A program made the position numbers and the translations under genes. Below the pieces are notes generated by a model. That model did no database searches, was not told the origin of the DNA, and was given only the letters and a program-made list of their open reading frames with translations. A DNA stretch of 35,111 bases from Williamsoniiplasma lucivorax ATCC 49196 (GTDB lineage Bacteria > Bacillota_I > Bacilli_A > Mycoplasmatales > Mycoplasmataceae): assembly GCF_000518285.1 (NCBI RefSeq), contig NZ_JADH01000015.1:1-35111 (forward strand), in the 5' to 3' direction. Every line of letters begins with the position of its first letter. Within the stretch, counting starts at the first letter, position 1. Below are positions 15,619 through 17,350 of the stretch, in pieces.

Positions 15619-15640
15619 ATGAATTTTTATTCAGAAATAA
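15602..15640 (+). CDS. Possible 12-codon leader ORF overlapping the AEC start
   Basis: ATG at 15602 opens a frame reading MKRKKLWIFIQK, with TGA as Trp, and stops at TAA 15638-15640, inside the first codons of the AEC gene in another frame. The strongest Shine-Dalgarno nearby, AAGGAGG (15582-15588), is 13 nt before this ATG but 30 nt before the AEC ATG. It may be a translational leader, or simply chance. Confidence 0.25.
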
Positions 15641-16830
15641 CTACTTCAGGGCAAGCTATTGGTAATGCCTTGAGTAGTCTACTCTTTTGAGGAACTATTC
15701 TAGCCGCAACATTTGTTATTGGTTTAGGATGATTTATTCAAAAGAAAAAAATATTTAAAGAAGGTTGAGAACAACCACTTGTTAAAACACTAGTGATGAT
15801 TGGTTTACCTGCTTTGATCTTTAATTCATTTATGAAAGATATTTCAACTGAACATATCGTTAATATGCTTATGTTAATGCTTGCGGGAGTTATTTTCTTC
15901 TTTGCAATGTCAGTTGGAGCAAAATATTTATATATTAATAAAAGTAAATCAATTCAAGACACTTTATCAATGTGTATCGCTTTTGGATCAACAATTTATT
16001 TTGGGGTACCAATTGTAAAAGCGGTTTTTCCAAATAACATACCAGATGTTGAACAAGCAGCTAATATGTTTAATGTTGGTTTTTGATTATTTATGTGTTC
16101 ATGAGCTTTATTTGTTATTAAAAAACCAGTTGCTGGAATGGGACTTGATGGTAACAAATTAAAAGCTAAAGACACAAATGGTCAAGTTGTTGCCTTAGAA
16201 AATTATAAGGTGAAATGAACAGATATTAAAGGGGTTATTTTAACACCAATTATTATCTCGTTAATTGCTGGATTCACACTTTGAATTCTACAATTAATTC
16301 CAGGAATTAAGGTTATTCATGTCACAGGTAGTGGGTGAAATACATTGGCAGGAATAAAAGATGGTTATTATTCAGTCACTAGACTAGATGCTTTAATTCC
16401 AGGGTTGGCTATGATTCTAAATCTTTTAGGAGCATTACCAACACCACTTGCTTGATTAGCAGTTGGAGCAATTATTGGTAAAACTAATTTTAAAGAAGCA
16501 ATTCAAAATAAATTAGTTTGATGAACAGTTGTTCTAAGAAATTTATTAACACCAATTGTATCATTTGTCATTATTATCATTTTTGCAGCAATTGGACATG
16601 CGAGTGGCGGATTTAGTATCAACCGTATCGATTTTGTAGTTGCTGTTATGATGGCTGCTTCCCCAATTGCCACCACAATTGTCAGTTATGCAATTCTGTA
16701 CAACAAAGAAAAAGAATTAGCATCACTATCGACATCACTATCAACAGTATCTGCTGCAGTAACAATGCCGTTATGAACTATCATTGCTGTTTTCTCAGCC
16801 TATGAATTTGGTTTTGTGGCTGCCATTTAA
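15619..16830 (+). CDS. AEC-family (auxin efflux carrier-like) membrane transporter
   Basis: This 403-aa protein looks like a secondary carrier of the AEC family. It has about ten hydrophobic segments, with an N-terminal helix from residue 17, and the family-like stretches LVMIGLPALIFNSF and AASPIATTIVSYAILYNK near the end. In other bacteria AEC members export or import organic acids such as malate; the substrate here cannot be predicted. The ATG at 15619 has AAAAGGA seven bases upstream. TGA Trp codons break the frame in the standard code. The gene stands alone, divergent from the ribosomal operon, and ends at a strong terminator. Confidence 0.8.
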
Positions 16831-16892: not shown

Positions 16893-16902
16893 GTAAATAA
16901 AA

Positions 16903-16922
16903 AAGTCTTATTAGCAAGACTT
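16903..16922 (-). terminator. Terminator of the arsR/Cys-rich ORF unit
   Basis: AAGTCTT (16903-16909) pairs with AAGACTT (16916-16922); on the minus strand it is followed by TTTTTT. It closes the small arsR operon and stands back to back with the AEC terminator. Confidence 0.75.
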
Positions 16923-16960
16923 ATTTGGCATAGATTTGTTTTGTGTTGGCAAAACAAGCA

Positions 16961-16987
16961 CTAGCAGCATCCGCAATCTGGACACAT
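16961..16987 (-). CDS. Cys-rich micro-ORF after arsR (8 codons, possibly 21 with a +1 shift)
   Basis: ATG at 16987 follows AGGAGG by five bases, a very good ribosome binding site placed right after the arsR stop. The frame reads MCPDCGCC and stops at TAG (16961-16963), with Cys at 2, 5, 7 and 8. If one base is skipped at the TAG, the frame continues SACFANTKQIYAK and ends at TAA (16921-16923), exactly at the terminator stem. This would be a 21-aa peptide with five Cys. The sequence may contain a true indel, a sequencing error, or a real short peptide. The function is unknown; thiol binding of a metal or metalloid sensed by ArsR is an inference. Confidence 0.45.
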   Translation of the reverse strand: MCPDCGCC

Positions 16988-16996
16988 AAGAACCTC

Positions 16997-17284
16997 CTAT
17001 TGATTACCCACTTCATTTAAAAAGTGGCGTAATTTGCTAAATTTAGTTAGGTCAAAATCATAAATTTTTAAAGTACCTTCTTTGATTACTTTAACAAAAC
17101 CAACTTCTTCTAAAAATTTCATGTGATAAGAAAGTGTTGGTTGGGTGATGTGCAATTCTTTTAATAAATTTCTCGCACATAAACAATCAAATGACTTTGA
17201 TGTTAATAATTCAACAATTTTTAATCTGGTTGGATCAGATAAAACTTTAAACATCAAAGCATAATCATCATAATTGTATTCCAT
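16997..17284 (-). CDS. ArsR/SmtB-family metalloregulator with a Cys-x-Cys motif
   Basis: This 95-aa winged-helix repressor has the family start FKVLSDPTRLKIVELL and the recognition helix ITQPTLSYHMKFLEEVGFV. Cys34 and Cys36 (DCLCA) occupy the place of the arsenic-sensing ELCVCDL motif of E. coli ArsR, so As(III), Sb(III) or a soft metal is the likely signal. The ATG at 17284 has AGGAGG six bases upstream; a longer frame to 17350 would overlap the operator and is rejected. A palindrome overlaps its promoter, so it probably represses itself. No efflux pump or arsenate reductase gene is next to it; the only partner is the Cys-rich micro-ORF. Confidence 0.88.
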   Translation of the reverse strand: MEYNYDDYALMFKVLSDPTRLKIVELLTSKSFDCLCARNLLKELHITQPTLSYHMKFLEEVGFVKVIKEGTLKIYDFDLTKFSKLRHFLNEVGNQ

Positions 17285-17319
17285 ATAATTCCTCCTAACA
17301 TGAACATAATAACATAAAC

Positions 17320-17350
17320 ATAGATAATTATCTATATTTAGACTTATCAA
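17320..17350 (-). promoter_or_regulatory. arsR promoter with palindromic operator
   Basis: On the minus strand, TTGATA (17345-17350) and TTATCT (17322-17327) lie 17 nt apart. The -10 lies inside ATAGATAATTATCTAT, a perfect 16-nt palindrome (17320-17335). A repressor bound there would block RNA polymerase. Repeated TATGTT motifs follow toward the start codon. Confidence 0.55.

Follow-up and report, generated by a model that had tools for sequence, protein, structure and literature searches.

What an arsenic-type repressor controls in a reduced mollicute genome devoid of arsenic pumps is the question raised by a short locus of Williamsoniiplasma lucivorax ATCC 49196, lying within the 35,111-nucleotide stretch of DNA analysed here (hereafter, the window). 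A first-pass annotation had described an ArsR with a Cys34-x-Cys36 motif, a 16-nt palindrome, a micro-ORF reading MCPDCGCC behind an AGGAGG and a terminator proper to the unit, all of which we could read directly in the sequence (Table 1; TGA encodes Trp in this organism). The -10 box, which had been placed inside the palindrome, needs to be moved: in the best promoter match the palindrome holds a -35-like TAGATA and an extended -10 (TGtTATTAT) follows just past it, although this match is itself weak, with four promoter-consensus matches found against 3.6 expected. The terminator hairpin went unflagged by a simple consensus scan. The AEC-family transporter gene (15619-16830) was rejected as a member of the unit, being convergent on the opposite strand and not found beside arsR in the relatives examined. 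Our main proposal, which we consider probable, is that we have here a minimal metal(loid)-response unit in which ArsR acts on a promoter-overlapping palindrome and a metallothionein-like peptide is its partner; the peptide would be translated, induced by As(III) and able to bind metal.

Table 1 Features of the arsR/micro-ORF locus in the window (TAG at 16999-16997 and 16963-16961 for arsR and the micro-ORF, respectively)
Feature	Position	Strand	Characteristics and basis
arsR, 95 aa ArsR/SmtB-family repressor (ATG 17284)	16997-17284	minus	Cys34-Leu-Cys36; recognition helix TQPTLSYHMK; PF01022, NF033788, PDB match, tree
ArsR operator, perfect 16-nt palindrome ATAGATAATTATCTAT	17320-17335	none	sole exact copy in the genome; upstream of arsR
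Candidate promoter TAGATA - 17 nt - TATTAT, extended -10 TG, overlapping the operator	17306-17334	minus	consensus match only
Shine-Dalgarno (SD) AGGAGG of the micro-ORF	16993-16998	minus	overlaps the arsR stop; GGAGG also ahead of the relatives' micro-ORFs
Micro-ORF MCPDCGCC + TAG (ATG 16987), 4 Cys in 8 codons	16961-16987	minus	positional counterpart of the relatives' 21-28 aa Cys-rich micro-ORFs
Possible relic, 3' half of a longer micro-ORF: CLFCQHKTNLC, then (C)AAATAA	16921-16960	minus	in frame past the TAG; compare CK-TAA in the congener
Terminator hairpin AAGTCTT-gctaat-AAGACTT + T-run, closing the unit	about 16896-16922	minus	fold -12.9 kcal/mol

The evidence supports a repressor of the arsenic type that descends from within Bacillota ars operons. 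The window ArsR matches PF01022 at 44.5 bits (cut-off 22; 1.4e-11) and NF033788 at 62.9 (cut-off 55), and its Cys34-Leu-Cys36 aligns with the CAC of ars-operon ArsRs, the alpha3 CxC thiol site of Bacillota ArsR. Its best PDB match is an arsenic-responsive ArsR (6j0e), and several of its closest annotated plasmid genes encode As(III)-sensing ArsR. Scanning GTDB genomes for the operator, and then for an SD and ATG, led to many Bacillota ars operons in which the operator precedes either arsR (CGELCACDLLEHF) or arsD (AMCCSTGVCG), with arsA, acr3 and arsC further downstream in several of them. In the tree, the mollicute ArsRs group together (94/93) and nest beside the ArsR of a clostridial ars operon (91/90), with no change in the recognition helix. 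The tree sample was picked by operator and therefore contains no CadC/SmtB outgroup, so that the placement establishes ancestry within ars operons and does not thereby exclude other ions. The assignment to the arsenic type made from the window is thus supported by operator, recognition helix and phylogenetic position alike, and such a repressor would be released by As(III) or Sb(III).

Efflux is regarded as the way in which arsenic operons act, and the lack of a pump that had been remarked on from the window extends across the genome. ArsB (PF02040) occurs in none of the 60 family genomes, Acr3/SBF (PF01758) has no match in the window's genome and none above the cut-off in the family, and the four P-type ATPases aligned from the window's genome carry no CPx motif, the motifs there being of PE type. 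We read the locus as an ars unit reduced to a sensor and a metallothionein-like micropeptide.

Relatives of the window ArsR were present in 19 of the 320 genomes of the order, 13 of them within the window's family (relatives are labelled by genus, g1 being the window's genus and g7 and g9 other genera of the order; G000 is the window's genome). We show that a Cys-rich micro-ORF with a GGAGG adjoins arsR in 12 of these 13 family genomes, the window included. The sole exception is G154, in which the neighbour of arsR encodes a P-type ATPase that has a CPC motif and whose N-terminus is His-rich. The ArsR-linked peptides of the relatives have 21-28 aa and 6-8 Cys (e.g., MLGFNSLCTCEVCTCTNCQCGK); a g1 congener (L002) encodes MCNCNCKCNDCTCASNGTSCK, and the ten g9 genomes encode peptides such as MLRVSLGCTCEVCTCTDCKCGK and MLNISSVCENKSCTCENCTCEVCTCESC. 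Their pN/pS values of 0.56 and 0.33 are based on few changes and constitute weak evidence. MCPDCGCC itself was absent from all relatives searched, and ArsR, operator and micro-ORF are all missing from two other g1 genomes. The idea that a thiol micropeptide is the partner of ArsR therefore stands as far as the pairing goes, which is kept in relatives, but the conserved product is a metallothionein-like peptide of 21-28 aa and not the octapeptide; the signalling role also suggested for it found no support. At nine g9 loci (L004, L005 and L007-L013), a gene for a lipoprotein with a CPHC-like CxxC motif runs divergently from arsR, and the micro-ORF has rpmG (L33) as its divergent neighbour. An apparent micro-ORF next to arsR in one Eubacteriales MAG (L122) was rejected as an out-of-frame reading within a larger oxidoreductase gene.

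The position of the operator differs with the gene layout. In the two g1 genomes with the operon layout, both genes share a strand, with the micro-ORF 3' of arsR and the palindrome ahead of arsR. In g9, where arsR and the micro-ORF converge and the latter has an upstream region to itself, the palindrome ATATAGATAGTTATCTATAT, in part tandem and with one mismatch in two loci, precedes the micro-ORF in all ten loci; no ArsR operator was found ahead of arsR in these ten. Because the operator tracks the micro-ORF through two different layouts, the micro-ORF is likely the target of ArsR. The exact operator ATAGAYANNTRTCTAT occurs in 11 of the 60 family genomes, 10 of the 11 being arsR/micro-ORF loci; an extra operator match in G202 was discarded as a terminator stem.

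Metallothioneins are regarded as rare in bacteria, with a length of about 50-70 aa. The ArsR-linked peptides of the relatives share the features of this class in being very small, Cys-dense and built on CxC/CxxC motifs, and they would be expected to bind metal(loid)s; judged by sequence, such a peptide looks like the smallest bacterial metallothionein. Eight of the relatives' peptides gave no Pfam or NCBIfam match at E up to 1, models of known bacterial metallothioneins included, and the 8-aa window peptide is too short for such a search. Micro-ORFs combining an SD with CxCxxCxC were found by pattern in 32 of the 320 order genomes, 23 being in frame and short, against 0 for a reversed-pattern control. 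All seven g7 genomes encode a 36-37 aa peptide with 11 Cys. Among the six 36-aa members, none of the 11 Cys varies although their codons alternate synonymously between TGT and TGC, and pN/pS is 0.11; because of this invariance and low ratio, the g7-type peptides are very likely translated, with their cysteines under selection in g7. The g7 locus is a candidate for a second, ArsR-free mini-metallothionein system. In the same genomes (L029-L035), the micro-ORF lies near 1539 and a divergent gene near 1651-1971 codes for a putative DNA-binding protein that carries a Cys-rich tail and has no confident Pfam match.

Further Cys-rich reading frames turned up in the course of these searches. Other genera of the order (L021, L024-L027, G311 and G313) carry 24-30 aa CxC/CxxC micro-ORFs with an SD, no arsR nearby and unrelated neighbours; G099 and G102 have such micro-ORFs in several copies, one beside a transposase-like gene; and a distant member of the order (L194; G299 C5) has a small, very Cys-rich ORF with an SD, MSCNCCNSCNCCNSCNCYNDSNSSCCCNDSKNK. 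The window's genome also encodes a 283-aa membrane protein without a Pfam match (L185:709-1560; G000 C6) that ends in a metallothionein-like tail, CQCLNCACQHCAC. No separate micro-ORF with a GGAGG was present among its CxCxxCxC matches, one of which is out of frame in an apparent transketolase. We set aside matches in eight genomes that were out-of-frame readings, several within a GGLHGVGAS-type topoisomerase motif, as well as three outside the order that proved to be ordinary hydrophobic N-termini when read in frame. In a Chloroflexi MAG (L119:3487-3558; JAMCZK010000049.1), the micro-ORF MFAKDEELAVIGDGGCCGGTGCC lies behind a similar operator and is convergent with a different ArsR; as a possible independent analogue, it hints at more than one origin of ArsR-controlled thiol micropeptides.

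Points against our main proposal are the window peptide itself, which is not conserved and has only 4 Cys, the weak pN/pS signal of the ArsR-linked peptides and the CPC ATPase next to arsR in G154; several other readings of this ORF must also be weighed. With just eight codons and a sequence found in no relative, it might be a chance reading frame; we consider this highly improbable, given that the window holds one SD-led ORF with at least 4 Cys and at least 20% Cys, where 300 first-order shuffles yield a mean of 0.0, and that a Cys-rich micro-ORF sits at the same place in 11 relatives. Equally slight is the chance that it serves as a leader peptide, acting on a downstream gene through its Cys codons or through metal binding. 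Short Cys-rich upstream ORFs do act as leader peptides for other metals, but such a role is disfavoured in the window and in g9 because no same-strand gene follows: beyond the micro-ORF come the terminator and then the convergent transporter gene in the window, and a convergent arsR in ten relatives. A weightier alternative, to which we give somewhat less than even credence, is that the window micro-ORF is no longer functional. On this reading, a 21-aa micro-metallothionein was cut to a useless 8-mer by a nonsense codon together with a 1-nt insertion, and ArsR represses only itself; the window locus would be a relic, with the reading of the family unaffected. Past the TAG, the same frame continues with TGC codons as CLFCQHKTNLC (3 Cys in 12 codons, p about 0.007), and, once one extra C is disregarded, the 20 codons from the ATG to the last Cys and the AAATAA behind them agree with the 21-aa ORF of the congener; the absence of MCPDCGCC from every relative points the same way. 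However, when the window ORF is read through the TAG and aligned without gaps to that of the congener, the match is suggestive but falls short of significance (17/54 nt, p 0.21; p 0.15 for the overlap of Cys), and it is for this reason that we hold the window copy to be only probably a shortened derivative cut by the in-frame TAG. Moreover, SD, operator and arsR are all intact, and with four thiols the peptide could still offer one possible site for As(III) or a metal ion.

The identity of the ion is a separate matter. Under our main proposal, ArsR would sit on the promoter-overlapping palindrome and repress both arsR and the micro-ORF; once its CxC site has captured a soft ion, in all likelihood As(III) or Sb(III), ArsR would be released and the short Cys-rich peptide made. 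In the relatives, the CxC/CxxC thiols of the 21-28 aa peptide would then bind the ion and keep it in the cytosol, such sequestration standing in for the usual pump. That the ion sensed and bound is instead Cu(I), Cd(II) or Zn(II), as in SmtB/SmtA or BxmR/BmtA, seems to us rather unlikely, yet it merits attention: known bacterial metallothioneins bind Zn, Cd or Cu (PMC12193353, PMC10612145), CxC/CxxC arrays are generic soft-metal ligands, and the close ArsR homologue beside the CPC ATPase of G154 leaves room for Cu, Zn or Cd in place of As. What argues for arsenic is that operator and recognition helix are the same as those of Bacillota arsR from arsD/arsA/acr3 operons, bearing in mind the operator-drawn tree sample without CadC/SmtB, together with the arsenic-responsive PDB match and the As(III)-sensing plasmid homologues. 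The boldest version of the proposal, which we regard as doubtful and offer tentatively, is that Mollicutes swapped the arsenic pump for a gene-encoded thiol micropeptide, with an ars-type repressor having the smallest known bacterial metallothionein as its sole target, tuned to As(III)/Sb(III), and the window octapeptide being a still active, single-site version.

The pairs smtB-smtA of Synechococcus and BxmR-bmtA of Oscillatoria, in which a repressor of the ArsR/SmtB family likewise stands over a gene for a small Cys-rich peptide (PMC12193353), are the functional precedent. SmtA (56 aa) and PmtA (about 70 aa) adopt zinc-finger-like folds and use His ligands (PMC12193353, PMC10612145), whereas the peptides described here have 8-28 aa, no His and no Pfam/NCBIfam model, and the ArsR and operator are of the arsenic-operon type. 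The canonical Bacillota ars operons (arsR-arsD-arsA-acr3-arsC) share with this locus the type of ArsR (CxC, TQPTLS[YH]HMK) and the operator; in contrast, pump, chaperone and reductase are missing here, and the only target found is the Cys-rich micro-ORF. According to one published account, genes for sequestration had not been found in the ars operon (PMC12093948). Our own literature search, of incomplete coverage, returned no published description of mollicute metallothioneins or of an ArsR-controlled micropeptide of this kind. In length, Cys number and CxC/CxxC spacing, the peptides resemble the short copper metallothioneins of fungi, for example the one from Neurospora crassa with about 25 aa and 7 Cys, but the latter are fungal and copper-induced, and common descent is without evidence.

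Taken at this strength, a reduced genome appears to keep an arsenic sensor and its operator, paired with a peptide that in relatives has 21-28 aa and falls below the usual annotation cut-offs. If this is true, encoded metal-sequestering micropeptides would have been overlooked across Mollicutes, and arsenic tolerance by means of an ArsR-controlled sequestering peptide would be directly testable.
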